In this document: positions 2,519 through 22,256 of the stretch, piece by piece
Layout of the letters: the number at the start of each line of letters is the position of its first letter
Numbering within the stretch: position 1 is the stretch's first letter
Source: a virus
Length of the DNA: 23,726 bases
Strand: one strand, 5' to 3'
Virus record (IMG/VR): IMGVR_UViG_3300025626_001225
Coordinates: 1-23,726 of that record
Translations under genes and position numbers: made by a program
The notes under the pieces: model-generated
What the model saw: only the letters and a program-made list of their open reading frames with translations
Databases searched by the model: none
What the model was told of the DNA's origin: nothing

Positions 2519-3934
2519 TTATTCACTGCTTAAATTATTTAAAAAAGTTTTTAATTTTGTAGAATCAGCTTCGGCTTTTACTTTTCCTATACCTGATCCT
2601 TCTGAAGGATTAGATGGTTGATTGTTACCATTCCTTTTAATACTTTCCAATACACTACTACCGTTACTAGGTGCTGAACTATAACTATCTTGTTCATCCT
2701 CATCTAAATCTTCAATACGTAGTGTGTCTACATTAAAACTTAAATCAATCTTTTGTCCTACACCACTTGATGAACGTGTCTTCATAAGCTGGATCTGATA
2801 GCGCCCACGCTCACGCATAGCTCTACTAGTAAAGATACCAATCAAGTTATCTGCTGTATTGATCTTTGATATACCGCCTGAGATATGCGAGTGATCAAAC
2901 TCAATTTCTTCTACGCTACTTCTGTTTAGCTGTGATGCTGTAACAAAGATAGTGTTAAGTTCCATAGCTAGGTTACGTAGCTCTTCTGACACGTACTTGT
3001 CTTTGACAAACAAGTTCTCTGCACTAATCTTTGCAGCAATTGGATGCATAAGATCCAAGTAGTCTACAAGTAATACATCTACCTTCTTGCCTGTTTTGAT
3101 CTCATACTCTTTCAAATAACTTCTAATATCATTTGCATTCTTACCTGTGGGCATGTACTTAACTTGGAACGCACCTGATTTTTTACCAATAATACGCACT
3201 TTCATTTCAACATCGTCGATATTTTTAAACACATCACGACTTGGAATATCTGTAGTCATACTATCAACACGCATACTAACAAGTGCTTCTGAAAGTTCAA
3301 ATGTCAAGTACACTACGTTAAGTCCTTGTAGTGCCCAGTTCACGCCCATGTTTGCTAAGAACAAGCTCTTACCTGAGCCTGACCCACCTGCAAAGATATT
3401 AAGTTCGCCCCTGTTAAATCCACCAAACAGTTTCTTATCCAACGCAGGCCAGCCTGTGCTGATCTGTCCGTTCTTATCTTTAATGCTTTCTAATCTACTT
3501 CTAGGATCAGCAAAATAGTCTGTGCCTAAATCTTTTTGCAAACCAATTTGTACAGCTTTTTTAACCAAGTCTTCACATGCACCGTACTCGCCGTTCTCTA
3601 GTAAGTCAGCACTCTTAAGAATAGCTGCTTCTAATGCTTTATGCTTACTAAACGTTTCAAAATCTTGCAGTAACCAATCATAATGATTCTCCATTAAATC
3701 ACCTGGGTGTTTCAACTGTCCATCAGTAGCTGCATTAATTATATCAAACGTAGGCAATGCATTATGCTCAGTTACATAGTCATTTAAAAAAGTTGCCTGT
3801 GGTTGCAATCTTCTGTCAAAACTTGCAGGATCAAACACTGCTTGACAGCGCACAAAGCTCTCAGCATCTGTCATCATCATTTCAAGATACACTTTCTGTA
3901 TCTCATACCCATAGTCTGTGTTTTGTCTTGTCAT
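2519..3934 (-). CDS. 41: Replicative DNA helicase, DnaB family (T4 gp41-like)
   Basis: This is the 5'-3' replicative helicase that unwinds DNA at the phage fork with the gp61 primase. The 471 residues contain a RecA-like core: Walker A GGSGSGKS at 183-190, Walker B VLLVDYLDL at 287-295, the TASQLNR motif at 332-338, and a C-terminal basic KTRSSSGVG stretch at 385-393 typical of the arginine-finger region. The N-terminal ~150 residues match the hexamer/primase-interacting part in position. The last ~60 residues are acidic and low-complexity (EDLDEDEQD) and end in KLKTFLNNLSSE. Length agrees with T4 gp41 (about 475). A near-consensus sigma70 promoter ends 6 nt before the ATG, with no Shine-Dalgarno sequence. 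The primase lies in the same cluster. Confidence 0.95.
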   Translation of the reverse strand: MTRQNTDYGYEIQKVYLEMMMTDAESFVRCQAVFDPASFDRRLQPQATFLNDYVTEHNALPTFDIINAATDGQLKHPGDLMENHYDWLLQDFETFSKHKALEAAILKSADLLENGEYGACEDLVKKAVQIGLQKDLGTDYFADPRSRLESIKDKNGQISTGWPALDKKLFGGFNRGELNIFAGGSGSGKSLFLANMGVNWALQGLNVVYLTFELSEALVSMRVDSMTTDIPSRDVFKNIDDVEMKVRIIGKKSGAFQVKYMPTGKNANDIRSYLKEYEIKTGKKVDVLLVDYLDLMHPIAAKISAENLFVKDKYVSEELRNLAMELNTIFVTASQLNRSSVEEIEFDHSHISGGISKINTADNLIGIFTSRAMRERGRYQIQLMKTRSSSGVGQKIDLSFNVDTLRIEDLDEDEQDSYSSAPSNGSSVLESIKRNGNNQPSNPSEGSGIGKVKAEADSTKLKTFLNNLSSE

Positions 3935-3970: not shown

Positions 3971-4901
3971 GTGTTACTTTGGTTTTTGTTTTTGCAAGAA
4001 CTGCGCCTACACAGCTTCCAGGGTCACCAGGATTTTGTGGAACCCATACGCTTTGCCAGTCTCGACGTATACCGTCTATAGCAAGTTTGTTGAGAGCCCC
4101 GCCGCCAGCTAACGCAATATTATTTGATTTAGTTTGTTGCTTTGTGTAATCACTTAACACATGTACACATATTTCAAATACCTTTTGTGTAGTTGCTGCT
4201 AGGTCAGCTATATCCTGAACTGTTTTTATTTCTGGGTGCCAATCTAAGCAGCCTCTATGTAAATTTTTTTTAAGTTTTACTATGGGTCTAGCTTCAATGT
4301 CAATAATTTCATCTAGCATGATATTCATATAACGTCCTGGGTTGCCTGTTGCTGCATGTTTTGCAATTAAGTATTCGTCACGTTGTGGTGTAAATCCCAT
4401 ACGTTGTGTCATTGCACTATAGAACAAACCGAGGCTATGTGGATACCCTTGACTATATATCTTACGCAATTTATTGTTTTTACCATGCCATAATGTTAAG
4501 GTCTCAAACTCTCCTATACTATCTAAGCATATTACTGCACAGTCGTCGTAGGGCTGAGTGTAGTAAGCATAGGCCGCATGGCTTAAATGATGTTGGGTAT
4601 ATTCAATCTTACAACTGATGTTCCATTGTTTGAGATAATCACGTATGTTGTTTTCTTTATACAACCAACCCTGCCCTGCTCTCCATTGACGTAATGTTTT
4701 TAAGAATGGACGTTCATACCATACAACCTTATTAGGGCGTCCAAAACTTTGTCTAGCTACTTCTAGCATAGTCCAATTTGGATTAGGGTCGTTAGGTATG
4801 TTCGAGAAGTCTTTAGATAAAGCTGCCCATAAAAGTTTATTGTCATCAAACACTGCTAGGCTGGCATCGTGACTATTACCAACCATTCCCCAAGTAATCA
4901 T
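3942..4901 (-). CDS. Carbamoyltransferase-like protein, N-terminal (Kae1-like) domain only
   Basis: Related to the NodU/CmcH/TobZ O-carbamoyltransferases. Visible motifs are the N-terminal GNSHDASLAVFDD (8-20), a metal-binding HHLSHAAYAYY (104-114; His104, His105, His108), the LDSIGEFET nucleotide-site stretch (126-134) and LAGGGALN (264-271), all typical of the Kae1/YrdC-like carbamoyl-adenylate half. At 319 residues it lacks the ~200-residue C-terminal domain of full NodU proteins (usually about 550-600), so either it is a minimal form or a host or other phage protein completes it. The ATG overlaps the stop of the 40-residue gene upstream (ATGA). Likely role: carbamoylating a sugar or other small acceptor, perhaps linked to the glycan genes in this window (inference). 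The acceptor is unknown. Confidence 0.8.
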   Translation of the reverse strand: MITWGMVGNSHDASLAVFDDNKLLWAALSKDFSNIPNDPNPNWTMLEVARQSFGRPNKVVWYERPFLKTLRQWRAGQGWLYKENNIRDYLKQWNISCKIEYTQHHLSHAAYAYYTQPYDDCAVICLDSIGEFETLTLWHGKNNKLRKIYSQGYPHSLGLFYSAMTQRMGFTPQRDEYLIAKHAATGNPGRYMNIMLDEIIDIEARPIVKLKKNLHRGCLDWHPEIKTVQDIADLAATTQKVFEICVHVLSDYTKQQTKSNNIALAGGGALNKLAIDGIRRDWQSVWVPQNPGDPGSCVGAVLAKTKTKVTLDNRWYQKV

Positions 4902-6826: not shown

Positions 6827-7198
6827 ATGTTATTAAGAGATATACAAGAAAATTTTCCGTTTATTAGTGTAGTAACTTACGGTGGCTCAGAATATGTTGG
6901 TATAATTATTAACCAAGATCAATGGGTAACAAGTATGTATGTGTTTACAGATTTAAAAACAGAAATAGAGAAAAAATTATTTTTACAGTTAGGCGAAACT
7001 TGGTGGTGGGAATCAAATCGAATGATTCCTATTAATATATTTTTGCGTGATGAAATGACTAACATGCGTTATGCAATTACAACAATGAATAGTAAAGATG
7101 TAAGAGTTAGTATTGGTCCAACTGTTAATTTAGGTGAAATGCAAATTAAACGAATTAAACGCAAGTCAGTACAACTTATAAGAAATCCTAAGAAATAA
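6827..7198 (+). CDS. Conserved-looking T4-like phage protein, 123 aa (only plus-strand gene)
   Basis: The protein begins MLLRDIQENFPFISVVTYG. It contains YVGIIINQDQWVTSMY, a Trp-rich GETWWWESNR stretch (residues 57-66), and ends in a strongly basic tail (KRIKRKSVQLIRNPKK). The layout resembles a conserved hypothetical protein of T4-like marine phages; the function is unknown to me. The basic tail suggests nucleic-acid or capsid contact. A late promoter motif at 6781-6788 suggests expression with virion genes. Its last 11 nt overlap, tail to tail, with the DnaE-like gene on the other strand. Confidence 0.8.
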   Translation: MLLRDIQENFPFISVVTYGGSEYVGIIINQDQWVTSMYVFTDLKTEIEKKLFLQLGETWWWESNRMIPINIFLRDEMTNMRYAITTMNSKDVRVSIGPTVNLGEMQIKRIKRKSVQLIRNPKK

Positions 7199-7745
7199 TT
7201 TTCTCACACAATAAATTCATATGTACTACACATGCCATTGCATAAGAAATAGCATGTGCTTTTTTAAAGTAGTAACCTTCCTCAGGCTTCTTCCAAACTT
7301 CTTGGAATATCGTTTGCCATGTTTCGTTGGCAAGATGCCTCTTTGCAGGCCGTATTATCGCTAGTGTAGCTGCTAATTGTTTTACCGATGTAGGCTTCAA
7401 TTGCTGCAATAGTGCGCTGTGCCCGTTGAGATGAAAGACTTGCTCGCTGAAGTCTGCGTGTTCCAGTAGTTGCCATAATGGTTCCTTTTCCATTAGTTTA
7501 ATTAAGTGTTCTTCATCCTTAACGTCTTTGTATATGCTTACGTTAAGAAAGTCTAGTTTAAAATAACCTCGATCCTCAGCAGTTTTATAATCAAATGTTG
7601 CAAGATTATTAACAGGGTTATGAGGTATTTCAGTTGCATATATTCCAGAATTATGTTTTTTTTCGCTATTCATTCTAGCAACACGATGGTGTAATCTATT
7701 TAAAACAATCTCTCTGTTTGCAAAGTCTATGTCAATATCAGGCAT
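7188..7745 (-). CDS. Miniature DNA polymerase III alpha (DnaE)-like protein, 185 aa
   Basis: Several motifs line up in order with the C-family polymerase core: PDIDIDF (2-8) matches the PDFDVDF motif carrying two catalytic Asp; HNSGIYATEIP (31-41) matches the HAAGVVI region; RGYFKLDFLN (59-68) matches KFDFLGL, carrying the third Asp; LNGHSALLQQLKP then LAATLAIIRP matches the fingers stretch ending in ALYRP; KKAHAISYA (161-169) matches the HAAAYA motif. A real DnaE exceeds 1,000 residues, and here the PHP, thumb, OB and tau-binding parts are absent. Whether it polymerises, binds primer ends or regulates the host polymerase is unknown. It starts in a TAATG overlap with the radical SAM gene. I recall similar short proteins in T4-like cyanophages, but none with a shown function. 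Confidence 0.7.
   Translation of the reverse strand: MPDIDIDFANREIVLNRLHHRVARMNSEKKHNSGIYATEIPHNPVNNLATFDYKTAEDRGYFKLDFLNVSIYKDVKDEEHLIKLMEKEPLWQLLEHADFSEQVFHLNGHSALLQQLKPTSVKQLAATLAIIRPAKRHLANETWQTIFQEVWKKPEEGYYFKKAHAISYAMACVVHMNLLCEKIIS
7229..7265 (+). terminator. Possible rho-independent terminator after the plus-strand gene
   Basis: A 7-bp stem, CACATGC (7229-7235) and GCATGTG (7252-7258), with a 16-nt loop is followed by C and six T residues. It lies 30 nt past the plus-strand stop, inside the coding region of the opposite-strand gene. The stem is short and the loop long, so it may be fortuitous. Confidence 0.35.
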
Positions 7746-7762
7746 TATAAATTACTTTCTTT
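7726..7762. repeat. 37-bp direct repeat, left copy
   Basis: A perfect 37-bp match to 8867-8903, 1,141 bp apart. On the minus strand this copy covers the end of the radical SAM gene (codons for KESNL and stop) and the first codons of the DnaE-like gene (MPDIDID). Both flanks differ from the other copy immediately outside the repeat. Confidence 0.95.
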
Positions 7763-8851
7763 AATATTTAACAAATAATCTAAATTAGGATTATACAATT
7801 TCCAATGTTCTTTTCTTATATCATTTAGCTGCCGGTCGTGCTTGACAAATAATTTGTAGTTACCTTCTTTAGAAAGTTCTTTGATCATCACTTTAAAAAT
7901 ATCCTGAGTATCTATGTTCTTATATAAATTATCAATAATGATTTGTTTTATGTGAGCAGGTAGATTTCGAGGCATCATATAATCAGGACCGTCTATCAAT
8001 ACATATTTTTGTTTTAAATCTCTGTCTTTACAATAATTTATAAGATCTAATAAAACATTACAATTATATATACTTGCTACGCTATGAACATACAGATGGT
8101 ATTTTCTACGTTGAAACCAATCAATTGTTTGAGTAGTTTGTTTCCAGGATGTTCCTTTACGCAAAAATTCATTTAGCTTACCATAACTGTCAATACTTAA
8201 AGTAATACTAACTTTCTTACACTGTTTTAATAGATTGTGTAATTTACTATTAGGTATCACTGTAGTATTAGTTGATATTGAAAATTGTAGATTTGTTAAA
8301 TCACACTGTTCTAATATTTTAATTAATTTTTCCTGTTCTAATAATGGTTCGCCACCTAATAATTTAAGATATTTTAATTTACTAAAATCTCCGTTTTCGA
8401 CAAAAGGATTTACAACTATACCTTTAGGTATGTCAAATGGATAATTCATTTTTTTAGCATCACTGTACCATTGTGAGCTTAATGCAGGGCCGCACATTCT
8501 ACATTTGTTATTACATGTATTGCTTATACTTAGATCAATATAAGTTAGTTCAGGAGTTGTATTATCTTCAAAACTATTTAATCCTAACGTATCTTTATCT
8601 TTGTAAAATTGCGTTCTAAGACTAGATCCTTTTGTTTCTTCGTCTTGATAACAATAAGAACATCCACTTACATACTCGTCATTAGACATTTTGTTTCGCA
8701 AGTTTTGCATGTAAGGATGATTAAAAGGATCTGGATGAAAAATATTTAAATCATCAGGCACATCTTCCCATCTATAGATACAACAAGGAACTATTTTACC
8801 ATCAGGACGAACAGCCATATGATTGAAAGGTAACAAGCATGTATATTTCAT
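7745..8851 (-). CDS. Radical SAM protein (twitch/SPASM-type cysteines)
   Basis: Radical SAM enzyme that would reductively cleave SAM to a 5'-deoxyadenosyl radical. The cluster motif is CNNKCRMC preceded by NT: Cys113, Cys117, Cys120 (CxxxCxxC). GGEPLL (166-171) is the SAM-binding GGEP motif. Additional cysteines (Cys23/Cys24 in PCCIYRW, Cys64/Cys67 in CSYC) lie before the core and suggest a second cluster or zinc site of the twitch type. It has 368 residues; the substrate is unknown. The gene is bracketed by 37-bp direct repeats, and its C-terminal residues (KESNL) are identical to those of the gene upstream because they lie inside the repeat, so it looks like a cassette inserted between two older phage genes. 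A GGA 9-10 nt before the ATG may serve as ribosome site. Confidence 0.9.
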   Translation of the reverse strand: MKYTCLLPFNHMAVRPDGKIVPCCIYRWEDVPDDLNIFHPDPFNHPYMQNLRNKMSNDEYVSGCSYCYQDEETKGSSLRTQFYKDKDTLGLNSFEDNTTPELTYIDLSISNTCNNKCRMCGPALSSQWYSDAKKMNYPFDIPKGIVVNPFVENGDFSKLKYLKLLGGEPLLEQEKLIKILEQCDLTNLQFSISTNTTVIPNSKLHNLLKQCKKVSITLSIDSYGKLNEFLRKGTSWKQTTQTIDWFQRRKYHLYVHSVASIYNCNVLLDLINYCKDRDLKQKYVLIDGPDYMMPRNLPAHIKQIIIDNLYKNIDTQDIFKVMIKELSKEGNYKLFVKHDRQLNDIRKEHWKLYNPNLDYLLNIKESNL

Positions 8852-8853
8852 TT

Positions 8854-8886
8854 TTAATTTTCCAGATCTATGTCAATATCAGGCAT
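8854..8886 (-). pseudogene. Vestigial start of the DnaE-like gene (10 codons, MPDIDIDLEN)
   Basis: Immediately after the zinc-finger gene, a TAATG overlap opens a 10-codon frame whose first seven codons equal those of the DnaE-like gene, then diverges (LEN) and stops 2 nt before the radical SAM ATG. It lies in the right copy of the 37-bp repeat. It is best read as the cut-off original 5' end left by insertion of the radical SAM gene. It may still couple translation to that gene. Confidence 0.7.
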
Positions 8887-8903
8887 TATAAATTACTTTC
8901 TTT
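8867..8903. repeat. 37-bp direct repeat, right copy
   Basis: Perfect copy of 7726-7762. On the minus strand it spans the end of the zinc-finger gene (KESNL and stop) and the start of the vestigial frame. Recombination between the copies would remove the radical SAM gene exactly and restore the order zinc-finger gene, then DnaE-like gene with a TAATG junction. Confidence 0.95.
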
Positions 8904-9632
8904 TGCTACGTCTTTTACTAATGCTACATCATTACGTTGTCTTTTAAATCTAAGTGACCAATGTTCTGGATCTAAAATATGATAAATCATTGTTAATTGT
9001 TCTTCATTAAATTTACTAAGCATATCTTTTCCGCTTTTACAATTTAACACTAACCAAGGACTGACCTTTCCGTCTTTAATGTGCCACACAGCTCTATTTA
9101 AACTTACATGTTCAAAGTAATGATTCCACGGTGCAGGCTCATTTTCGTCTGCCCATTCCATCATAGTTTTTACGCTACGTTCTAATGCTGTAGTAACATC
9201 CTCTTTCTTTATTAATTCAATTGCATACTTTTCGTACATCTCATCTTTGCACCAATGATCTAATTTAACACCACTAGTAACAACGTAGTCAATATATTTT
9301 TCGGGATACAAAGGTTTTACATTACTAAGAAAACTACCAAACTTTACAAATGCATTATAGTAAGGACTACTACAAAAATCTTCGTAGGTCTTTTTACTTT
9401 TTATCTGCATTGAAGTTTCATAAAATCTAGTAAATGCATAAAATCCTAATTGCACCCTTTTTTCATCTTTTTGCAATGCTCTGCGTTTCTTTTCGCACAT
9501 ATGGACTGCAAGAGTTTTTTCTCTTGTGTAACCTGTACCGCAGTACTTGCATACATATGGTTTAGAATTTAATGTCAATGTTATGTTCTTCAGCCAAAAG
9601 TTTGAGTTCTTTTTTTGTAAATGTTCCAGCAA
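8886..9632 (-). CDS. Phage protein with N-terminal C2HC zinc finger
   Basis: Residues 27-46 form a zinc finger (Cys28, Cys31, His44, Cys46; VCKYCGTGYTREKTLAVHMC). The remaining ~200 residues have many Trp/Tyr and charged residues and no recognised domain. It resembles a conserved zinc-finger protein of T4-like cyanophages; DNA or RNA binding is inferred. No ATG fits: the start given is TTG at 9632, with GAGG 9 nt upstream but a 71-nt overlap with the previous gene. TTG at 9578 is an alternative that leaves the finger intact and cuts the overlap to 17 nt. The C-terminus lies within the 37-bp repeat. Confidence 0.8.
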   Translation of the reverse strand: MLEHLQKKNSNFWLKNITLTLNSKPYVCKYCGTGYTREKTLAVHMCEKKRRALQKDEKRVQLGFYAFTRFYETSMQIKSKKTYEDFCSSPYYNAFVKFGSFLSNVKPLYPEKYIDYVVTSGVKLDHWCKDEMYEKYAIELIKKEDVTTALERSVKTMMEWADENEPAPWNHYFEHVSLNRAVWHIKDGKVSPWLVLNCKSGKDMLSKFNEEQLTMIYHILDPEHWSLRFKRQRNDVALVKDVAKESNL

Positions 9633-10014
9633 GTAATTCTACCTCATCCATTTTCATAGTTGGATTTATTTGTGCTAATAATTTTACAGCTTTATTATTA
9701 TCATTTGTTTTCTTTTTAAACCCTTGCCAAGGATGAAATTCTATCTTGCCTGTGTTTCCGCTCATGCACAATAATTGCCATTGTAATTTAGGATGCTTAC
9801 TTACTTCCATATAATTTTTATTGTAGTATTCGTTAGTTTTAAAAACAGCCATTGCTTGTTTTTCAAAATTACCTTTTACACTAGATACATATCTATTTAG
9901 TAACCAAAAACTCACTTGCTTGCGTTCTTCATCTGAAAAATCATTCCATACATCCTTAGCACCTAAGTCTATTGCTGCTAAGATGTCCTTTATTGGAAGT
10001 TTTTGTTGTGCCAT
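9562..10014 (-). CDS. Conserved-looking T4-like phage protein, 150 aa
   Basis: The protein begins MAQQKLPIKDILAAIDLG. It looks mostly helical, with a Trp-containing central part (NDFSDEERKQVSFWLLNRY, then HPKLQWQLLCM) and a C-terminal segment like a short SAP-type or helix-hairpin-helix fold (AGTFTKKELKLLAEEHNIDI). Similar hypothetical proteins occur in T4-like marine phages; no function is known to me. It overlaps the kdsB-like gene upstream by 25 nt and the zinc-finger gene downstream, so it belongs to the same operon. The C-terminal segment might bind DNA (weak inference). Confidence 0.75.
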   Translation of the reverse strand: MAQQKLPIKDILAAIDLGAKDVWNDFSDEERKQVSFWLLNRYVSSVKGNFEKQAMAVFKTNEYYNKNYMEVSKHPKLQWQLLCMSGNTGKIEFHPWQGFKKKTNDNNKAVKLLAQINPTMKMDEVELLAGTFTKKELKLLAEEHNIDIKF

Positions 10015-10670
10015 GTATCTAAATCCTCAGGTGTGTTAATCTCTACTCCATTAAAGTATACACTCAAACAGCCGACTTGCCAACCGTTTTTTAACCAGCG
10101 TAGTTGTTCAAGTTTTTCTACATGTTCTTCTTTTGATACTTGTAGGTGCGGATATGCTCGTAGTGCATCTTTGCGATATCCATATACTCCCAAGTGCCAA
10201 TCGCCGTAGCCAGTCATACCTCTACCAAACCATAGTGCTTGATTACCTGCACGTACCATCTTAACACTGTTAGGGTTGTTCTGTTCTTCTTCGGGCATTT
10301 CGGTGTACACTGTACTTACTTCGTATTGATTAAGACTAACTATGCACTTATGAATCATGTCAACTGTTACATCGGGCATGTCTCCTTGTACGTTAACAAA
10401 CTGATCGTAGTCGTCAAGTGTGCGCATTTCTACAGCGCCTGCGCATCTTTCTGTACCGTTTTCATAATCGGCTAAATCCATAATGCATCTACTAGCACCC
10501 ATCATATTATATATTTCTTGATGATCAGTAAGCACATATGTTGGTAGATTAGACGCTGTACAAGCGTCATACACACGTTGTATCATAGGTACACCATCTA
10601 ACATACATAGTGGCTTACCTGGGTAGCGTGTGCTACCGTAACGTGCAGGGATTAGTATTGCTGTTTTCAT
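9990..10670 (-). CDS. kdsB: CMP-KDO synthetase-like cytidylyltransferase (KdsB-like)
   Basis: Predicted to activate KDO (3-deoxy-manno-octulosonate) with CTP to CMP-KDO. Motifs over 226 residues: IPARYGSTRYPGKPL (7-21) is the nucleotide-binding loop; NVQGDMPDV (93-101) holds metal ligand Asp97; HLGVYGYRKDAL (159-170) and EKLEQLRWLKNGW (185-197) match the sugar-binding and dimer parts; INTPEDLD (211-218) matches the C-terminal metal motif. Start chosen at the ATG overlapping the upstream TGA (ATGA); an upstream TTG frame would add 16 unrelated residues. Oddities: Met for Glu in GDEP, and Asn212 where bacterial KdsB has a metal-binding Asp, so activity or substrate may differ. Its neighbour kdsA supports a KDO pathway. 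A related CMP-sugar is possible. Confidence 0.85.
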   Translation of the reverse strand: MKTAILIPARYGSTRYPGKPLCMLDGVPMIQRVYDACTASNLPTYVLTDHQEIYNMMGASRCIMDLADYENGTERCAGAVEMRTLDDYDQFVNVQGDMPDVTVDMIHKCIVSLNQYEVSTVYTEMPEEEQNNPNSVKMVRAGNQALWFGRGMTGYGDWHLGVYGYRKDALRAYPHLQVSKEEHVEKLEQLRWLKNGWQVGCLSVYFNGVEINTPEDLDTWHNKNFQ

Positions 10671-10825
10671 CCAAATACTACCAGTAAAATTATTACAAGT
10701 ATTATACCGCCTAGCCAATTGTTGTTGCCTGTTAGTCCTTTGCTCTTAGCGCAGTCATAACAGTAGCGAAACTTCTTTGGCGTCTTATTGCTACAAAAAA
10801 AGGCATCACATGTTTTCTTACTCAT
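10667..10825 (-). CDS. Small zinc-ribbon, single-pass membrane protein, 52 aa
   Basis: A 52-codon frame directly follows the kdsA stop (TAAATG) and ends in an ATGA overlap with kdsB. Residues 1-30 hold four cysteines in two pairs (Cys6, Cys11, Cys22, Cys25; CYDC) with many lysines, suggesting a zinc ribbon. Residues 37-51 (WLGGIILVIILLVVF) are one transmembrane segment at the C-terminus. The predicted layout is a cytoplasmic metal-binding head on a tail anchor. Function unknown; the position between the two KDO genes could be chance. Gapless fit and a coherent design argue for a real gene. Confidence 0.75.
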   Translation of the reverse strand: MSKKTCDAFFCSNKTPKKFRYCYDCAKSKGLTGNNNWLGGIILVIILLVVFG

Positions 10826-11638
10826 TTAACAATCCTCAAAGTTTCTATCAATAGTTGTTATTTCTTGTATTGTATATTGATGTGCAATAATATCTCTAAC
10901 AACTTTTTCAAAGTCATCTAGTCTAAGCATATTTGGACCATCGCTAGGTGCGTTGTCTGGGTCAGCGTGTACTTCTAAAAAGAAATTTGTAACGCCCAAA
11001 GCACTTGCAGCACGTGATAAGCCTGGTACATAATTACGATTGCCACCACTACTAGTGCCATTGCCTCCGGGCTTTTGAACACTGTGGGTAGCGTCCAAGA
11101 CCACAGGTACATCATAGGACTCAAGCATATACTGAATGCCAGTAAAGTCAACAACAAGAGTATTATAACCAAAACTTGTACCTCTCTCAGTTATCCAGAC
11201 TTCGCGAGCGTCTGCACACTTACTTAGCACTCCTGCCATGTCCCACGGTGCAAGGAACTGGCCTTTCTTGATGTTAACAATCTTATCTGTAGCACAAGCT
11301 GCTTGAATAAGATCTGTTTGTCTACACAAGAACGCAGGAATTTGATAGACATCAACTGCATCCTTAAACTGTCGTTCAATACGTCTAACTTGTACAGCAT
11401 CATGTACATCTGTTAGAGTCTTTACACCCAGTGTAACTTTAAGTGCAAGAAAATCTGTGAGTGTTGCATCTATGCCCATGCCACGTTTACCACTGGCACT
11501 TGTACGGTTGGCTTTGTCAAAACTTGCTTTGAAGTAATATTCAATGCCATACTTGTCGCACACACGTTTGCACTCTTTAGCAATCTCTGCACTCTGTGCT
11601 AGACCTTCATGTTGACATGGTCCTGCAATAATTCTCAT
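10826..11638 (-). CDS. kdsA: KDO-8-phosphate synthase (KdsA), metal-dependent type
   Basis: Condenses phosphoenolpyruvate with arabinose-5-phosphate to KDO-8-phosphate, the first committed step of KDO synthesis. The 270-residue TIM-barrel protein shows IAGPC (4-8), KASFDKANR (37-45), IPAFLCRQTDL (100-110), KKGQFLAPWDM (124-134), TERGTSFGYN (150-159) and DATHSVQKPGG (182-192). The four metal ligands of the metal-dependent class (Aquifex-like) are present: Cys8, His185, Glu222, Asp233. This start is chosen because its ATG overlaps the metK stop (TAATG); an upstream extension of 7 residues is possible. No KDO-8-P phosphatase or A5P isomerase is seen, so host enzymes would have to supply these steps. 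Confidence 0.95.
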   Translation of the reverse strand: MRIIAGPCQHEGLAQSAEIAKECKRVCDKYGIEYYFKASFDKANRTSASGKRGMGIDATLTDFLALKVTLGVKTLTDVHDAVQVRRIERQFKDAVDVYQIPAFLCRQTDLIQAACATDKIVNIKKGQFLAPWDMAGVLSKCADAREVWITERGTSFGYNTLVVDFTGIQYMLESYDVPVVLDATHSVQKPGGNGTSSGGNRNYVPGLSRAASALGVTNFFLEVHADPDNAPSDGPNMLRLDDFEKVVRDIIAHQYTIQEITTIDRNFEDC

Positions 11639-12732
11639 TACCATCCAATCCTTTCCCATGGTACATCTTTGTTACCAAAGTGTCCGTACGTACAATTGTT
11701 ACTATAATTATAAAAGTTAAACATATCAAATCTATCAATTATACCTTTAGGTGTTAAATCAATTTCTTTTTCAATAAATTTTTGTATTGACTTATCATGA
11801 CCATTGCTATGAACGTAAATGCTTGTTGGCTGTTTAACACCAATGGCGTAACTTAATTGAATATTACACCAATCGGCCATATTGTCTGCTACAACATTTT
11901 TGGCTAGCCACCGTGCCATGTATGCTGCACTCCTGTCAACCTTAGTAGGATCTTTACCACTAAAAGCACCACCCCCGTGAGGAGCAAAGCCACCATAAGT
12001 ATCAACGATAATTTTACGACCAGTAACTCCTGCGTCACCATCAGGACCACCAATAACAAAATTACCAGTAGGATTAAGATGCCATATAGTATCATCATCA
12101 ATTAAATCTCCAAACGCTGTATATGCTGCCCTACGACTTAGTCTTTGAGCTTCTTTAATTTCGCCTTCTGTATGTTGTGTACTTACAACAACTTGATCAA
12201 TACGTTTAGGAACGCCACCTTCGTATTCAACACTTACTTGAGACTTTGCATCAGGGCCTAGTTTCGTAGTACCTTCACCTGATACACGTTCGTCTTTTAA
12301 ATTTTTTAGTAATTCGTGTGCATAATAGATAGGTGCTGGTAAGTATGCATCGTTGTCGTTACATGCATACCCAAACATAATACCTTGATCGCCTGCACCA
12401 AAGTCATCTGTACCTAATGCAATATCGGTACTTTGTGAATGAATTTCATTATAAATGTTTAGTTTATCCCAATGAAACCCTTCTTGTTCATACCCAATCT
12501 CTTTAACTTTGTTGCGTACAATTTCTTTAACTTCTTCTTTGCTTACGTTAAAGTTTTTTACTTCGCCCGCCAATGTTACGTGATTGGTAGTTACAAGTGT
12601 TTCAACAGCAACACGAGTAGTCTCGTCTCCTGCTTTTAGTCCAGCATCAACAAGTGCATCCGAGATTTGGTCTGCTACTTTATCTGGGTGACCGTTACTA
12701 ACACTCTCGCTGGTAAAAATATAATTATTCAT
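11638..12732 (-). CDS. metK: S-adenosylmethionine synthetase (MetK)
   Basis: Makes SAM from ATP and methionine in the cytoplasm. The 364 residues are close to full length (about 384 in E. coli). Diagnostic motifs are intact: GHPDK (14-18), GAGDQG (112-117), and the P-loop-like GGGAFSGKDPTKVDRSAAY (253-271). It begins inside the last codons of the 86-residue gene (8-nt overlap) and ends in a TAATG overlap with kdsA. In this window SAM would feed the radical SAM enzyme and two FkbM methyltransferases; relief of host SAM limitation during infection is another reading (inference). Confidence 0.96.
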   Translation of the reverse strand: MNNYIFTSESVSNGHPDKVADQISDALVDAGLKAGDETTRVAVETLVTTNHVTLAGEVKNFNVSKEEVKEIVRNKVKEIGYEQEGFHWDKLNIYNEIHSQSTDIALGTDDFGAGDQGIMFGYACNDNDAYLPAPIYYAHELLKNLKDERVSGEGTTKLGPDAKSQVSVEYEGGVPKRIDQVVVSTQHTEGEIKEAQRLSRRAAYTAFGDLIDDDTIWHLNPTGNFVIGGPDGDAGVTGRKIIVDTYGGFAPHGGGAFSGKDPTKVDRSAAYMARWLAKNVVADNMADWCNIQLSYAIGVKQPTSIYVHSNGHDKSIQKFIEKEIDLTPKGIIDRFDMFNFYNYSNNCTYGHFGNKDVPWERIGW

Positions 12733-12985
12733 TATTATCCTTTATTATAAAATATGTTGTTACTAACTTATTCATTAGTTTTTTTAGAGTAGAATTAGAT
12801 TCACACATATCACATAGATTTTGCCATTCACTGTAATCAAATAAATGTCCTTGCGCCTTTGCTACTCCTGCAGGGTCGCCGCCAACGATCCAACGAGGTA
12901 TCTCAGGTTTGTCACGATAACGAGCGAACACAACACCGTTGGCCCGCTCGTATATCAATGCTTCTCCCGGAAGGAGTTTACTCAT
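12725..12985 (-). CDS. Conserved-looking T4-like phage protein, 86 aa
   Basis: The protein begins MSKLLPGEALIYERANG and continues with VVFARYRDKPEIPRW and IVGGDPAG. The pattern resembles a short conserved protein of T4-like cyanophages; no function is known to me. It is soluble, with a cysteine pair near residues 58-61 (CDMC). The ATG shares one base with the stop of the transporter gene (TAATG) and an AGGAG-like purine run (GGGAGAAG in reverse order is not seen; AAACTCC is) is not evident, so translation is probably coupled. It overlaps metK by 8 nt. Confidence 0.75.
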   Translation of the reverse strand: MSKLLPGEALIYERANGVVFARYRDKPEIPRWIVGGDPAGVAKAQGHLFDYSEWQNLCDMCESNSTLKKLMNKLVTTYFIIKDNNE

Positions 12986-13674
12986 TATCCGGCTTTCTTC
13001 TTAGTAGCTGCTTTCTTCTTAGTAGCTGCTTTCTTCTTAGTAGCTGTTTTCTTAGCCGGCGCATCTATAACCACTTTACTTTGCATCCATTTTAATAGTA
13101 CACCGTATGCTGGTAGGAATACAATTAGTCCTACAACAATCTTTGTAAGTGTATTATTAAATGCTACGTCTGCAACCCAAGGTGCAGGATAAAATGCTGT
13201 GTAGAAGAATGCATATGTATCAATGATGTTTGCTGCAATAGTTGATACTGCTGGAGCAATCCACCATGCACTCATACGCTCACGAATGTATTGGAATACA
13301 TATACGTCAAGCATTGTACCTACTGCATATGCTACACCTGATGCTAACCCAACACGATATGCGTGTTCATCACCTAGTGCCAATAGCACAAGCACTGATG
13401 CTACAATAGCAGGAATAATAGCCATTGCTACAACAGCTCTACCTGCTTGCTTGCCAACCATACGTACTGTAAGGTCAGTTGCAATTACAACGATCGGAAA
13501 TGTAAACGCCGCCGCTGCTAAAGGAAATGATCCAAACAGAGGCAATTCTGCACCTGGAAATAAATCAAACCTAATTGTAACTAGATAGTTTGACACAGCA
13601 ATTACTAGCGTGTGTAAAATAACTAGATTTCTTACAAGTGTCTTGTCAACACCTTCTAATAGTCTTGTAAACAT
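12985..13674 (-). CDS. yhhQ: VUT-family (YhhQ-like) queuosine-precursor transporter with Lys/Ala tail
   Basis: An integral membrane protein of about six helices, e.g. residues 13-33, 50-66, 82-100, 108-125, 137-158 and 175-195. FPIVVIATDLTVRMVGKQAGR (59-79) matches the conserved TDL...R..GK..A signature of VUT/YhhQ transporters, which import 7-deazaguanine queuosine precursors in bacteria. A phage copy could support host tRNA queuosine or 7-deazaguanine bases in phage DNA; no other gene of that pathway is seen here. Oddity: the C-terminus (206-229) is a Lys/Ala/Thr repeat (KKTATKKKAATKKK) encoded by perfect 18-bp tandem repeats, like histone H1 or AlgP tails. Confidence 0.85.
   Translation of the reverse strand: MFTRLLEGVDKTLVRNLVILHTLVIAVSNYLVTIRFDLFPGAELPLFGSFPLAAAAFTFPIVVIATDLTVRMVGKQAGRAVVAMAIIPAIVASVLVLLALGDEHAYRVGLASGVAYAVGTMLDVYVFQYIRERMSAWWIAPAVSTIAANIIDTYAFFYTAFYPAPWVADVAFNNTLTKIVVGLIVFLPAYGVLLKWMQSKVVIDAPAKKTATKKKAATKKKAATKKKAG
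12992..13045. repeat. Three perfect 18-bp tandem repeats coding for a Lys-rich tail
   Basis: The unit gctttcttcttagtagct (plus strand) occurs three times without a mismatch, and a diverged partial copy follows. Each unit encodes six residues of the AATKKK pattern at the end of the transporter. The count is likely to vary by slippage, in whole codons, so frame is kept. Confidence 0.95.
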
Positions 13675-16007: not shown

Positions 16008-17207
16008 TTATATTTCTTCAAACTGTTTTTTTAACATTAACGATATTTCTTTACTGTATGCTATACTAAGATCACATACGTTATATACGTAACTAGAAAT
16101 AATTCTTCCTGTGTAACCAGAATCAAGTGTTAACGAACTTTGAAATTTAATTTTTGATTCAATTAATGGTTTAGGTATTTTATTACTATCTATATTAATA
16201 TACACTATATCAACTGATTTGTCAAGAGAAACATTTAAATTATTGTTTTTTATATACAAATTAAAATCAAGTCCGTCATCATTGTTAGGTAATCTAAACA
16301 ATACAGAATGTTTTAAGTTGGGATTTAAATAATATAATGTCTTGTGCAGATGTTCTAATTGTTCTAAACATTCATTTTCGTTTAATCCTATTAGTATCGG
16401 CAAACGTTTTAATTGTATTAAGGTTGTAAACATCTGACATATATCATACTGATCAGGATTAACTTGTATTGAATGTCTCGAACGGTTAGCAATCTTATGT
16501 AATAAATTATCTTGTTTTTTGTAATTATCTAACACATTAAGATTATATAATATACTCCTATCTTGATAAAATACTAAATTACTCTTACAAGGTTTACCAA
16601 ACATATTATGTAATGTTTGTACATGTTCGTTTGCTAAATTACGAAGGTTATATTGATATAAACTAGGTACATAATTTTGTGGTGATACTCTAATTGCCTT
16701 TATTTGAGTATAAAAATCTATTAATTTTTTATCAATGTCGAACCCATTATTTTGAAATGTGTCAATAATCTCTTCTAGAATACGTTCTTTAAATTCAAAT
16801 ATATGTTGATGACTACCTTTAACATGTGTATGATACCCTCTAAATTTAGAAGTAATGGATTCTAATTTTATTATTAATTTTTTACTGAACGGAAATCTTA
16901 GAATTAATTTATTATCTTCTAATTTTAAATATTTAGATCTATCAATCGTCCTTAATGGAGTGCGTAATACCTGTAGTCTATTCTCTAGATCGTCAATACC
17001 AGCTAACAAAAACTGATCATTATATTTTATTAATTTTTCTTTTACTACAGTATATTGTCTATCAGTAAATGCAATACCTTTAAATATTTGCCTAGCAATA
17101 CTAGTTAGAAATCCAATATCGGATGCATCGATATTAAATTCTATGTCTTCACGTAGGCCAACAAACAATTCTAAACAATCTTCTGCAGTATTATAATTAT
17201 GTATCAT
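16008..17207 (-). CDS. Unrecognised phage protein, 399 aa, first gene of the uvsW operon
   Basis: No firm family. Residues ~85-165 (NKLILRFPFSKKLIIKLESI, then a His-rich stretch and FEFKERILEEI) resemble in layout the HARP-like substrate-recognition domain found beside some SNF2/SF2 helicases (FPYNP...), but this is tentative. Residues 265-390 alternate beta and alpha elements (LPILIGLNENECLEQLEHL, VDIVYINIDS) like a RecA-type fold without Walker motifs. A degenerate helicase or UvsW partner is therefore a guess supported mainly by its place directly before uvsW. Transcription starts from a perfect sigma70 promoter 6 nt before its ATG, and no Shine-Dalgarno is present. Confidence 0.75.
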   Translation of the reverse strand: MIHNYNTAEDCLELFVGLREDIEFNIDASDIGFLTSIARQIFKGIAFTDRQYTVVKEKLIKYNDQFLLAGIDDLENRLQVLRTPLRTIDRSKYLKLEDNKLILRFPFSKKLIIKLESITSKFRGYHTHVKGSHQHIFEFKERILEEIIDTFQNNGFDIDKKLIDFYTQIKAIRVSPQNYVPSLYQYNLRNLANEHVQTLHNMFGKPCKSNLVFYQDRSILYNLNVLDNYKKQDNLLHKIANRSRHSIQVNPDQYDICQMFTTLIQLKRLPILIGLNENECLEQLEHLHKTLYYLNPNLKHSVLFRLPNNDDGLDFNLYIKNNNLNVSLDKSVDIVYINIDSNKIPKPLIESKIKFQSSLTLDSGYTGRIISSYVYNVCDLSIAYSKEISLMLKKQFEEI

Positions 17208-17213
17208 ACGTTA

Positions 17214-17242
17214 ATTATAGCTTAGACTAAAGCAGATGTCAA
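17214..17242 (-). promoter_or_regulatory. Perfect sigma70 promoter for the uvsW-metK-kds operon, leaderless geometry
   Basis: The minus strand reads TTGACA (17237-17242), a 17-nt spacer and TATAAT (17214-17219), then 6 nt and the ATG at 17207. The -35 box lies in the final codons of the glycosyltransferase gene upstream. The arrangement is the same as before the primase and gp41 genes. It should drive the tightly packed genes from 17207 down to 7188. Confidence 0.85.
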
Positions 17243-18082
17243 GTTTTTTAATGGCAGTCCTTGTGATATTTCTTCTATTGTATATTCAGTGTGTGCGTAA
17301 TCATTAAGCCATTGTGTTCTATCTGGCATCACAGGATTTTCAATATCGTATAAAAAGTCTATATCGTTGGCCACGTCATAAGCAAGACTATGAGTACTAA
17401 CAAAAGCAGGAACGCCTTCGATGATAGAATGTATCCCAGGATTGCTACTGTAACTGATAGTACAATGTATATCATTAAAGCCCATATCAAAAGAATCATA
17501 AGTGCCGTTAACATGTCGGGGCTCCTGTCTATATACGTGTCGTAAGCCTCGTTCTATTTCAGGTAATCGACAGCGTGGGTGTGGCCTAAATATAATTGGC
17601 CGTTGTGTGTGTTTACGTATTTCATCGTATGTATCTAAGAACCAGTTGCTCATAGGTGGCATGCCTTGCCACTGTAGACTTTTATCATGCTGTCCACATA
17701 ATAGTATATACTCGCCGTCAGTACGCCAAGGCTTTAACGATAGACCGAGTAGACGATGGCGATCACTGTTATTACTATCGGGCCCAAAGTAAGCATCTCT
17801 ATTAATCCCATTTAATCCCACCTTCCACGTTGTGCTTCTTTTGATTCCTCCGACTTCGAGGACGATAACTGGTTTGCGAAGTTCAAGACAACGGGTCCAA
17901 ATATCTTTGTTACGAGCCATTCTACCGTGAAAAAGCACACTCCAAATAACATGGCAATCGGCATCATCGATATTATTACTATCACTAATATTATGCCCAT
18001 TAGAAATGCAACTGTGCTCAAAAGCACTAAAAATATTAGAGGCATTTAATGCACCGTATTCCTTCCAAAGCCTAAACTTCAT
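17222..18082 (-). CDS. Capsule-type (KpsS/KpsC-like) GT-B glycosyltransferase, 286 aa
   Basis: The C-terminal half carries a module shared with the genes at 18921 and 19819: GEYILLCGQ (123-131), RPIIFRPHPRC (161-171), and YSSNPGIHSIIEGVPAFVST (211-230). RPHP and the Ser/Asn-rich loop before IEGVPAF resemble bacterial KpsS/KpsC capsule transferases, which use CMP-KDO. That would fit kdsA/kdsB in the next operon, but the donor cannot be read from the sequence. It is soluble with no membrane segment. It starts in an ATGA overlap with the preceding GT gene. It is the last gene of the glycan operon, and its 3' end contains the promoter for the uvsW operon. Confidence 0.72.
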   Translation of the reverse strand: MKFRLWKEYGALNASNIFSAFEHSCISNGHNISDSNNIDDADCHVIWSVLFHGRMARNKDIWTRCLELRKPVIVLEVGGIKRSTTWKVGLNGINRDAYFGPDSNNSDRHRLLGLSLKPWRTDGEYILLCGQHDKSLQWQGMPPMSNWFLDTYDEIRKHTQRPIIFRPHPRCRLPEIERGLRHVYRQEPRHVNGTYDSFDMGFNDIHCTISYSSNPGIHSIIEGVPAFVSTHSLAYDVANDIDFLYDIENPVMPDRTQWLNDYAHTEYTIEEISQGLPLKNLTSALV

Positions 18083-18924
18083 CTAGATGTCCAATATGTT
18101 TCTTTACGATTAACCATTATATCTTTGGCTAAACTTTTTCCAGTATCTTTACGGGCACCTTTTAAATGGTCAATCCATTGACCAAGTTTAGTATTTATTA
18201 AAGGATGACCGCCGCCTCCGCTCTTAGCTTCACGCAAATACATGTCTGCACTATAATCTAAAACGTCTGGATTATATATTTTCATAAGGTTAAGTATATG
18301 TCCAAATATATAACTATCGTGCCACTCAACTAACTTAAACATTCCATTATCTGCATCTTCGTAAAATCTTTCAAATTCTTTTAGAAATTCAATACATACT
18401 GGGGTATTTAAGTTTAATCCGTAAAATCCACATTCGGGCCATGTCTGTGATCCTTTACCTCTACCAACATATGTAATCCATTTATCATCAGGTAATAGTT
18501 CTGCAAAGTCTTCATAACTCCAATTAGTATGTACAAATGTATCTGCATCCATCCACACGCACCAGTCCTTAGAGCGCTGTACAGCATCATAAACTGCGTA
18601 TGTCTTATTTGCAAAGCGCACAGCATCCCATTTGAATTCCTTTTGCCAATCCTTGCGTCCTTTACGTGCAGGATGGTTTGTTATATCTCCGTTTGCGTGT
18701 GGAACGCTGCTCCATTTATTTTTAAACTGATTTAATTTTGGTAATACAATTTGTGCATCTAGTACAGTAATATTGTTTGCAGAAACTATTGGATTACAAT
18801 TTTCCGCGTACACTAATAATTTAATTTTTGGATCAACCTTTTCAGCAAAGCTATCTAGAAATCTTTGGCCATATTTTTCTAATCCAGGTTGATGAAATGT
18901 TGTTACTACAGTAATATCTTTCAT
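18079..18924 (-). CDS. GT-A fold glycosyltransferase, 281 aa
   Basis: Predicted nucleotide-sugar glycosyltransferase. It begins MKDITVVTTFHQPGLEKYG and has the metal/nucleotide-binding DxD motif as WMDADTF (124-130). FYGLNLNTP and a WHDSYIFGHIL stretch lie in the acceptor half. The ATG at 18924 overlaps the stop of the upstream gene (ATGA) and is preferred; a GTG 27 nt upstream is in frame but inside that gene. It looks cytoplasmic, with no membrane segment. Donor and acceptor are unknown. Operon neighbours suggest assembly of an envelope or virion glycan. Confidence 0.82.
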   Translation of the reverse strand: MKDITVVTTFHQPGLEKYGQRFLDSFAEKVDPKIKLLVYAENCNPIVSANNITVLDAQIVLPKLNQFKNKWSSVPHANGDITNHPARKGRKDWQKEFKWDAVRFANKTYAVYDAVQRSKDWCVWMDADTFVHTNWSYEDFAELLPDDKWITYVGRGKGSQTWPECGFYGLNLNTPVCIEFLKEFERFYEDADNGMFKLVEWHDSYIFGHILNLMKIYNPDVLDYSADMYLREAKSGGGGHPLINTKLGQWIDHLKGARKDTGKSLAKDIMVNRKETYWTSR

Positions 18925-19832
18925 GTAAATTCTCGCATATGTTTCCAGCACTCTCCAGAGCGCAGTTCTTCGAAATTCCAGTGACTCATACTAATACGCT
19001 GACACCAACTATTTCTATCAAATTGCTGCGGAGTTTCGATTTGATTAAGGTTAGTATTTGCAATTTCTCTGCATTGACTATCTCGATGGTCAGTTAAAAA
19101 TATATTGTAACCTTTTATTGCAGGGCCAACGGCTGCACTACTATTATGATTTATTACAGCCCAAGCACCTTGTAAATCTGTTTCTAAAGGTTTATTTGAA
19201 GGACTTATAGAAACATTTTTATAATTTAATAATCTACACCCTTTTCCTAAATAATCCCTAGCACGTTTATCACCAGGATGTCCTCTAATAATAATTGGTC
19301 GATCACTATATTGTTGTATAGTGAATATTGTTTTTTCTAACCATTCTAATACTGACAATCCTTTCATACTCCACCCTCCATTTCTTTGAGCCATTAGTAA
19401 AATATGATTACCTGTTGTCTTGTATGGTTCCATACGTATTCCGGTAGTTTGTTGTATTTTATTCCATCTATTTCTATCTATAACAGTGTCGCAGTATTCA
19501 CCAGTAGTTGGAAAAATTCCATTATAACTATATCGCAAGTACCCCCAAGGATTTAAATGATTATGGTACAAAAATAAATTAGCATCAGCAGTAATCGTAG
19601 GAATATTAGACTGGATTATTTGTTTTCTTAATGCAAGATGCGGTGAATGAGTTTGATCATATATCCAACCTTGTATAACATTTACATCACTTGGTATTAT
19701 GTTACGTTCGTAACATAGTTCTCCCTGATCGCCTGCTACATTTACACCTGTTATAAAGTCACGTAATAGTTGTTCTTTTTGAGGTTTAGTATTTCTAGCA
19801 GGAACTGTATGTAGATAACTAACTACTTTCAT
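18921..19832 (-). CDS. GT-B-type glycosyltransferase, capsule-transferase-like, 303 aa
   Basis: Second copy of the module seen at 17222: GNHILLMAQRNGG (141-153), WLEKTIF (164-170), RPIIIRGHPGDKR (178-190), and INHNSSAAVGPAIKGYNIFL (227-246). The similarity to the genes on both sides is clear by eye but limited to these blocks. The N-terminal 130 residues would be the acceptor half. It begins inside the last 14 nt of the 552-residue gene. Specific sugar unknown; a KpsS-like or CDP-glycerol-transferase-like reaction is inferred from the motif layout. Confidence 0.7.
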   Translation of the reverse strand: MKVVSYLHTVPARNTKPQKEQLLRDFITGVNVAGDQGELCYERNIIPSDVNVIQGWIYDQTHSPHLALRKQIIQSNIPTITADANLFLYHNHLNPWGYLRYSYNGIFPTTGEYCDTVIDRNRWNKIQQTTGIRMEPYKTTGNHILLMAQRNGGWSMKGLSVLEWLEKTIFTIQQYSDRPIIIRGHPGDKRARDYLGKGCRLLNYKNVSISPSNKPLETDLQGAWAVINHNSSAAVGPAIKGYNIFLTDHRDSQCREIANTNLNQIETPQQFDRNSWCQRISMSHWNFEELRSGECWKHMREFT

Positions 19833-21477
19833 TTAAAATGTCCCAAGCAAATCCCGAAATCATTTCTCTTGGTGTGAATTGGCAATAACTTAGATGTGCA
19901 GCAAATGCCATTATATCATCTGCTTTTGGCATGTATAAATTATTAAGGTCGTCAATTTTTGTGTTACACAGTACACTTGCTGCATTAGGTGCAAGTGCAA
20001 TAGCGGGTACACCGTATAATAATGCTTCTGTAGCTGCAATGCTGTTAAATGTTATTAAACAAAATGTTTTATCTAAAGCATTGTATATTGTATTTGTTGT
20101 AATTCTTTCTGACCTGTTAGGTTTTGTACGAATAGTAATTTTACGATCAGTTTGTAATTTTACTTGTGCTATAGTGTCATTAATCCAATCATCTAAATTC
20201 ATTCCGTAAAATTTCATAACCTTTTCACTAGGCGGACAAATTAATATTTCGCTACCGTGTTTTCGTTTAGCAACAAATTTATATTTTAATTTTTTTAATC
20301 TATCATGCGGTCTTTCAATAATTGGACCAAGGTTTTGAACATGATTAATTGTTAATCTATGATATTGTTTATGTTTATCATTCCCAAAATATCCAGTATC
20401 CATATAGTAAAATTTACGTCCTGTATCCCAACAATGTTGTATTGCTTGTTGACAGTTTGTAGATAATCCTCTAATTAATAACGGAGTACTAGATTTTTTC
20501 TCTCTATCCCATGTTGATATATTTCCAGGAGACCCTTGTATAAAGGTTTCAATTATTGGATCATATTTTAATCCTCTAGACTCATACGGAGCATCACTTT
20601 CTATAGATACTACTCTTATTGGTTTAGTCACAGTATTATCTCCTTTATAAAATATATTATCTGGGTCTATCCGATTTTTTAAAGTTTTTTTTAGATGATC
20701 CTTTGTTTCAGTATTTAATGTTAAATCATCGATACTTTTATCTCTGTCAATTTCTCTTAGATATTTTAATTTAAGTTCAGAAATTTCATCTCTTAATACA
20801 TGACGCTCAACTTTATACCATTCATTTGCATATTCACAATCTTTATATTTTGAAAACCAAGGACCGCCTTCTGTATAGTGTAATGCTTTTGGCTTGCCGT
20901 CTTCTGGTTCTTTATACCATCCAACTAACCAATTCCATTCGTAACTTAGCCTACCAATTTCGGTATTATCTAGCCAACTAAATCTGTGTAAGTATGCACC
21001 AGTTATTTCCGGATCGTTAACTAAATCTAATGTTAATTTTTTATTACTAGGATGGCTACAATTAATTAACATCATACTTGACCAGTTTTTACGAGGATAT
21101 TGTGTCTGTTGTTTTCCGTCCATTTTTACATCTTCTTTAGGTGTATAATCATGATGCGCACACATAACTGCATATTTAGGATCACATTGTGCAAATAAAG
21201 TTTGTACATCTTTTAAAAATACAAAATCACAATCAATAAACAATGCCCAACCTTTATATTCTTGCAACGCAGGAATTAAAAATCTTGTAAATGTAAACTC
21301 TGTAGATGCTAATTTGTCTTCATCTCGCCAGTAAAAATTGTCTCGCCTTAACTCTTTTTGTTTTAACGGAACTATATCTGTTAATCTTACAGTTCGACCT
21401 TCTATACTTTTCTTACAGACTTGGTATGCAATGTCTTCTCTACTATCCCAGCCTACATAAATTTTTAATGGATCCAT
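19819..21477 (-). CDS. Two-domain glycosyltransferase: GT-A (GT8-like) fused to GT-B capsule-type module
   Basis: The N-terminal domain (1-~230) begins IYVGWDSREDIAYQVC and has the DxD motif as LFIDCDFVFLKD (79-90), the Ser/Asn-containing SSMMLIN stretch and HYTEGGPWF (200-208), as in GT8-like/GT-A enzymes. A charged helical linker (225-280) follows. The C-terminal domain (~285-552) repeats the GT-B module of the two downstream genes: GSEILICPPSEK (408-419), RKITIRTKPNRSER (445-458) and FCLITFNSIAATEALLYG (472-489) with GVPAIAL. The fusion would put two consecutive sugar transfers in one polypeptide. It starts in a TAATG overlap with the cytidylyltransferase gene. Confidence 0.8.
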   Translation of the reverse strand: MDPLKIYVGWDSREDIAYQVCKKSIEGRTVRLTDIVPLKQKELRRDNFYWRDEDKLASTEFTFTRFLIPALQEYKGWALFIDCDFVFLKDVQTLFAQCDPKYAVMCAHHDYTPKEDVKMDGKQQTQYPRKNWSSMMLINCSHPSNKKLTLDLVNDPEITGAYLHRFSWLDNTEIGRLSYEWNWLVGWYKEPEDGKPKALHYTEGGPWFSKYKDCEYANEWYKVERHVLRDEISELKLKYLREIDRDKSIDDLTLNTETKDHLKKTLKNRIDPDNIFYKGDNTVTKPIRVVSIESDAPYESRGLKYDPIIETFIQGSPGNISTWDREKKSSTPLLIRGLSTNCQQAIQHCWDTGRKFYYMDTGYFGNDKHKQYHRLTINHVQNLGPIIERPHDRLKKLKYKFVAKRKHGSEILICPPSEKVMKFYGMNLDDWINDTIAQVKLQTDRKITIRTKPNRSERITTNTIYNALDKTFCLITFNSIAATEALLYGVPAIALAPNAASVLCNTKIDDLNNLYMPKADDIMAFAAHLSYCQFTPREMISGFAWDILNESS

Positions 21478-22241
21478 TAATCTCTTCTTTCAATATCGTT
21501 TTCAGATAGCACATTCCCCATCCACACTTCAATTACTTTTGCAACCTTGTTATCTAAGTTTACAGCCTTATGCCACCATCCTACAGGTATATCTATGCTA
21601 TCTCCAGGTACAAGTAATGTACTAGTTTTGTTACCTTTTTTGTCTTCAAGAAACATATTTATAACTCCGTCTACAACATGCCAGTGCTCGCTACGTTTAA
21701 AATGTCTCTGATCACTTAATTCATGTCCTTCGTAAAACTCAAGTTGTTTGACTTGCCATCCGTTACCGTTGTCTAATATAGTATACTTACCCCATTGACG
21801 CACAGTAGTTGGCTGATTCCAGTTTTTTAATATCCAACTTGATGAATTTTTCTTATCTTCACCACCGACACCAAACGCAAATTCAACTTGGGAATGATTG
21901 CCGTATGTAGCATATTCAGGCGTAGTTGTGTTTGTTCTGTCGCCGCCGTTAGCAAAGACTATCTTGTTAGTATTAGTTGACATTGTATGAAAAATTGCCT
22001 GGCATGCGCTGTCGTCACTATCATCAAATCCGATGACTTTATCTACAACAGACAATTCTTTAATAATAGCAACTCGTTCTTCAAACGGCATAAATGGCTT
22101 ACCTTTCTTTCGTGTAAGCCATTCGTCGCTATTTACACCGACAATAAGTTTACTGCCGAGCTGTTTTGCTGATTTAAAATATTCGATATGTCCGCTATGG
22201 AGTGGATCAAACCCACCTGTTACTAATACTACATTGCTCAT
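21477..22241 (-). CDS. Cytidylyltransferase-cupin fusion (RfaE2/TagD-like plus sugar isomerase-type cupin)
   Basis: Residues 1-~140 are a nucleotidyltransferase: VTGGFDPLHSGHIEYF (7-22) with the HxGH motif at His15-His18, and VGVNSDEWLTRKKG (34-47) with FANGGDRTN (96-104), as in glycerol-3-phosphate or heptose-1-phosphate cytidylyl/adenylyltransferases. Residues 148-250 are a cupin like the C-terminal domain of type II phosphomannose isomerase: RQWGKY (148-153), QRHFKRSEHWHVVDG (178-192), IPVGWWHKAVN (218-228; His224), ending GNVLSENDI (242-250). It would activate a sugar or polyol phosphate and perhaps isomerise or sense it in the same chain. Substrate unknown. It is placed directly before the transferases. 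Confidence 0.85.
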   Translation of the reverse strand: MSNVVLVTGGFDPLHSGHIEYFKSAKQLGSKLIVGVNSDEWLTRKKGKPFMPFEERVAIIKELSVVDKVIGFDDSDDSACQAIFHTMSTNTNKIVFANGGDRTNTTTPEYATYGNHSQVEFAFGVGGEDKKNSSSWILKNWNQPTTVRQWGKYTILDNGNGWQVKQLEFYEGHELSDQRHFKRSEHWHVVDGVINMFLEDKKGNKTSTLLVPGDSIDIPVGWWHKAVNLDNKVAKVIEVWMGNVLSENDIERRD

Positions 22242-22256
22242 GTAGATATTTACTAG

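Follow-up and report, generated by a model that had tools for sequence, protein, structure and literature searches.

On the minus strand of the window (the whole 23,726-nt stretch of viral DNA analysed here, IMG/VR record IMGVR_UViG_3300025626_001225), three genes follow one another in a tightly coupled operon: an intact C2H2 zinc-finger gene (8886–9632, 248 aa, phrog_11058, given a TTG start), a radical SAM gene (7745–8851, 368 aa), and an intact mini DnaE-like gene (7188–7745, 185 aa, phrog_11778). A fold search with the zinc-finger protein gave no useful match. For the mini-DnaE protein, profile and fold searches alike indicate Pol III alpha, with modest scores; the similarity covers palm and fingers only, without the PHP and N-terminal part, and the protein opens directly with the palm motif PDIDIDF of Pol III alpha. 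A full-length DnaE (PHP plus complete palm) is rejected for this protein of 185 aa that starts at PDIDIDF. The zinc-finger and mini-DnaE genes adjoin in a replication cluster (uvsW, zinc-finger, mini-DnaE, primase, helicase) that is also present in cultured jumbo phages, including PA5oct, RaK2, Vibrio phage 2.275.O, Atu_ph07, Phosso, and SCTP-2, and the window phage is itself marine and related to jumbo phages. This mini-DnaE also occurs on some marine phage contigs longer than 200 kb (e.g., that of L024, 262 kb).

The product of the middle gene is a predicted radical SAM enzyme of the N-terminal twitch family (NF033640), against which it scores 244.4 bits, above the curated cut-off of 170. 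Of the near-invariant residues of that family, 76/78 are intact, CNNKCRMC among them; the CxxxCxxC cluster motif (C113, C117, C120) is kept, as are the N-terminal cysteines C5, C23, C24, C64, and C67. IMG/VR contains 55 other homologues, the best with 62% amino acid identity (L082), and all are located elsewhere. Nearly all of the 13 homologue contexts inspected have further radical SAM-like genes (L082, L104, L121, and others, on other phage contigs), possibly parts of a multi-enzyme pathway. About 3 kb from the radical SAM gene, on the same strand (11638–12732), lies a phage S-adenosylmethionine synthetase gene with three Pfam domains, the product of which is what the radical SAM enzyme would use.

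Around the radical SAM gene, positions 7726–7762 and 8867–8903 form a direct repeat with 37/37 identity (on the minus strand, AAAGAAAGTAATTTATAATGCCTGATATTGACATAGA), correct to the base in the original prediction. With as many as three mismatches allowed, the sequence occurs nowhere else in the window and never in 100 dinucleotide-preserving shuffles. Each copy spans the same junction, KESNL-TAATG-MPDIDID: the zinc-finger and radical SAM ORFs each end in KESNL and a stop codon that overlaps the following ATG (TAATG). The upstream copy (8867–8903, minus strand) holds the end of the zinc-finger gene (KESNL-TAA) and 19 nt beyond it, copied from the start of the DnaE-like gene. The downstream copy (7726–7762, minus strand) supplies the last five codons and the stop (KESNL-TAA) of the radical SAM gene and contains the true start of the DnaE-like gene. 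Since the inspected C termini of the radical SAM homologues are without KESNL, the window gene owes its final codons and stop to the zinc-finger tail. The DnaE start in the upstream copy leaves a remnant of 10 codons, MPDIDIDLEN-stop (8854–8886, minus strand; ATG CCT GAT ATT GAC ATA GAT CTG GAA AAT TAA, read from 8886 to 8854), as had been noticed from the letters together with the shared junction; the ORF ends and starts bear out both. The remnant stop lies 2 nt ahead of the radical SAM ATG, so that ribosomes may be handed on.

With 1141 nt between the starts of the two copies, the unique insert is 7763–8866 (1104 nt, minus strand), with 28.6% G+C compared with 32%–36% in the flanking genes. 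A single ORF, that of the radical SAM gene, fills it, preceded by a Shine–Dalgarno-like GGA and with no recombinase or nuclease domain. Promoter-like sites are no more frequent than in shuffles, and no terminator-like site is found at the insert. The insert has no terminal inverted repeats (15/40 positions match, about chance for AT-rich sequence), and a tRNA search of the window found none.

In about 19 distinct IMG/VR relatives, an alignment of both genes places the zinc-finger gene straight on the mini-DnaE gene with the same TAATG, the allele that had been predicted. In a further sample (90 loci with greater divergence, some of them also in the first), 31 junctions are shorter than 60 bp. 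Among the nearest relatives, L139 has an empty junction with collinear flanks; its near twin L138 (flank DNA identity 93% and 89%) carries 854 bp of other cargo exactly here. The junction repeat is thus in two copies around the insert in the window and in one copy in relatives without the insert. Among more than 100 distinct alleles, a radical SAM gene at the zinc-finger/mini-DnaE junction is found only in the window phage, and we did not find a diverged relative with it at the same site, the reverse of the situation, envisaged beforehand, in which all relatives would carry the gene here. An IMG/VR scan with the 27-nt core of the repeat recovered only the junctions of other phages and no near-identical single-copy allele; in a degenerate scan for double-junction loci, only the window phage has two matches among the at least 80 loci listed. 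The proposal that the radical SAM gene was inserted at the junction of the zinc-finger and DnaE-like genes, with duplication of that junction, is therefore well supported by the empty relatives and by the restriction of the gene at this site to the window phage. The clean excision also proposed, by recombination between the copies, is plausible, with 37 bp as a short substrate; removability of the cassette is a reasonable expectation and not a result.

The duplication appears young. In the empty relatives, the 37-nt junction differs from that of the window by 2–13 nt, and the identical pair thus points to recent copying inside the window lineage. Zero differences in 37 nt bound the divergence of the copies at about 8% or less (95% bound), whereas DNA divergence between the window and its nearest relatives (L138, L067) is ~18%–19%; the duplication is thus younger than the split from them.

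The same junction is filled repeatedly in related phages. It contains more than 150 bp in 78/104 distinct alleles, against 17/107 at the next junction upstream, 34/95 at the next downstream, and 0/25 at uvsW. The cargo ORFs found at it (L002–L215) form 38 sequence clusters, with Pfam matches that include peptide deformylase, an AAA/APS-kinase-like protein, DUF2061, 2OG-Fe(II) oxygenases, serine hydroxymethyltransferase, RpiB, an HhH-GPD repair protein, carbamoyltransferase, sulfotransferase, and an Fe–S assembly protein. On a tree of 113 zinc-finger and mini-DnaE sequences, there are at least 18 switches between empty and filled, and the four members of the window's own clade (SH-aLRT 98) show four states: radical SAM, kinase, kinase with a second ORF, and empty. 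The zinc-finger/mini-DnaE junction is a hotspot with repeated gain and loss of cargo. Most cargo genes begin on the zinc-finger stop codon, and in 51 of 85 filled alleles (counted by hand) the cargo ends at an out-of-frame TGA within the mini-DnaE start ATGCCTGA; that start thus doubles as a stop for arriving genes.

Several elements of the history are established: an empty TAATG in many relatives, a one-gene insert with a ribosome-binding-like sequence, and duplication of both flanks. In the history that we consider quite probable, a foreign twitch-family radical SAM gene was put into this once-empty hotspot junction, with replication-linked illegitimate recombination as the likeliest means. 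From the arrangement, we infer a template switch. A strand would have departed from the phage genome at a point 20 nt into mini-DnaE, taken as template a donor fragment about one gene long (a ribosome-binding site and an ORF without its stop), and re-entered 37 bp upstream of the exit, in the last zinc-finger codons. Such a backward re-entry would duplicate the junction and provide the cargo with both a stop codon and a TAATG that couples it to mini-DnaE; the remnant mini-ORF 2 nt before the cargo start could let the operon remain translationally coupled. Had the re-entry been farther downstream, one or other of two conserved genes would have suffered, so that selection would keep the duplication-type product; selection by itself can account for the duplication. 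We did not find a donor close enough to reveal the breakpoints, the best homologue being the L082 protein.

The same end product, an insert between two perfect copies, would also follow from homologous recombination, by a single crossover at the 37-bp junction with a circular or concatemeric DNA bearing one junction copy and the radical SAM gene. For the 29-bp repeat of mycobacteriophage LRRHood, acquisition by recombination within the repeat is preferred by its authors (PMC3029335). Here, that route requires a prior molecule in which the radical SAM gene already adjoins the junction; none is seen in IMG/VR, and the problem is pushed one step back. We consider it unlikely. Much less likely still is a mobile element, transposon-like or borne by a homing endonuclease, with a 37-bp target-site duplication. 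Direct repeats of a target sequence do flank the insert, and the site has been hit many times in relatives, but the insert is filled by a single enzyme ORF with no transposase, recombinase, or nuclease domain, it lacks terminal inverted repeats and a tRNA, and the other inserts at the site are without such repeats. Transposase duplications are usually shorter than 37 bp.

Both contigs with the arrangement are metagenome assemblies, in which a repeat could join reads from two genomes or loci, and the original prediction named such an artefact as a possible source of the repeat. An independent IMG/VR assembly, 3300025704_000816 (19,200 bp), however, has the same arrangement and is 99.9% identical; the seven SNPs over 7,899 bp all lie outside the repeats and the insert. 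Two assemblies seven SNPs apart thus agree, the usual read is longer than 37 bp, the insert fits the operon in phase, and the variable junction appears in the repeat in the window phage's own version; an artefact is very improbable. We give equally little credence to ancestral presence, with an old radical SAM gene and its repeat lost from the relatives by recombination between the copies. The empty alleles do resemble clean excision products, but no relative retains the gene here, and the two copies are identical in a 37-nt stretch that varies among relatives. Recent, replication-linked insertion of a foreign gene remains the preferred history.

The closest known likeness is in LRRHood (Cluster C1), where a 1.35-kb segment (genes 43–46) lies between the 29-bp direct repeats; relatives without the insert have this repeat once, at the very 3′ end of a gene (PMC3029335). 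The window has the same layout, with an insert between direct repeats and a single-copy junction in relatives without it. The LRRHood insert, however, comprises four genes including a repressor, where that of the window is a single gene, and the window repeat carries a stop codon and start coupling, with which the LRRHood repeat is not described in the accessible text (PMC3029335). The window is a new and very clear member of the LRRHood-type repeat-flanked insertions. As with phage morons, an extra gene sits between genes that are contiguous in relatives; classical morons have their own promoter and terminator (PMC3029335), whereas the window insert has neither in any conspicuous form, and start/stop overlaps fit the cargo closely into the operon. 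In T4, too, replication-linked short-repeat recombination alters gene content, but there it acts between homologies of 2–10 bp and gives amplification and deletion within one genome (PMC9391042), while in the window a foreign gene is gained with a 37-bp duplication. Accessory metabolic genes likewise vary at defined places in marine cyanomyoviruses, where proximity to tRNAs or homing endonucleases is suspected (PMC3037559); the window contains no tRNA, and its insert no endonuclease. A literature search for radical SAM hotspots in jumbo phages gave no match.

The footprint of one phage gene gain is well preserved here: the site can be read both empty and filled, along with its duplicated junction. 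It shows a route by which a gene from outside can be taken into a tightly coupled operon with its neighbours unharmed. More useful than this single case are the hotspot and the variety of its cargo; the hotspot is common to marine phages through PA5oct, RaK2, Atu_ph07, and Phosso, in which gain and loss are directly testable.

Among 83–85 filled alleles, a long junction repeat is present in no other, and neither zinc-finger-tail nor DnaE-start similarity, either of which would betray vestigial repeats, exceeds that of mismatched pairs. Exact repeats of at least 14 nt occur at one other locus only (L045), away from the insert ends. A degenerate repeat scan gives five matches against 1.2 expected, and at insert ends only the window repeat and that of L203. 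Thus, either most cargo entered by other routes or the repeats have decayed. On the contig of L203 and L064, a DUF6445 gene between a kinase gene and the next cargo gene is flanked by a 17/19-nt repeat (GAGAGAAAYAATGTYTGAT), and its two copies (3310–3328 and 4118–4136) carry the last codons of the upstream gene and the next start. In L209, a near twin, the repeat is single and the DUF6445 gene absent; relatives of the L203 DUF6445 gene were not found in IMG/VR. Judged from these sequences, L203/L064 is a possible second junction duplication and a weaker case. That junction duplication is a recurring route of cargo gain at a dedicated replication-operon hotspot, with a copied tail and stop/start coupler and with repeats that later erode, seems doubtful to us; if true, arriving genes would be plug-compatible at once.

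Elsewhere in the window, also on the minus strand, a vitamin-uptake-transporter-like gene (Vut_1, 12985–13674) has a lysine-rich C terminus that comes from three 18-nt direct repeats (12992–13053). Sugar and surface-modification genes occupy 9990–11659 and 16008–23530 on that strand. They include cytidylyltransferase and DAHP-synthetase-family enzymes resembling the KDO pathway, an FkbM methyltransferase, and a nucleotidyltransferase–mannose isomerase fusion.
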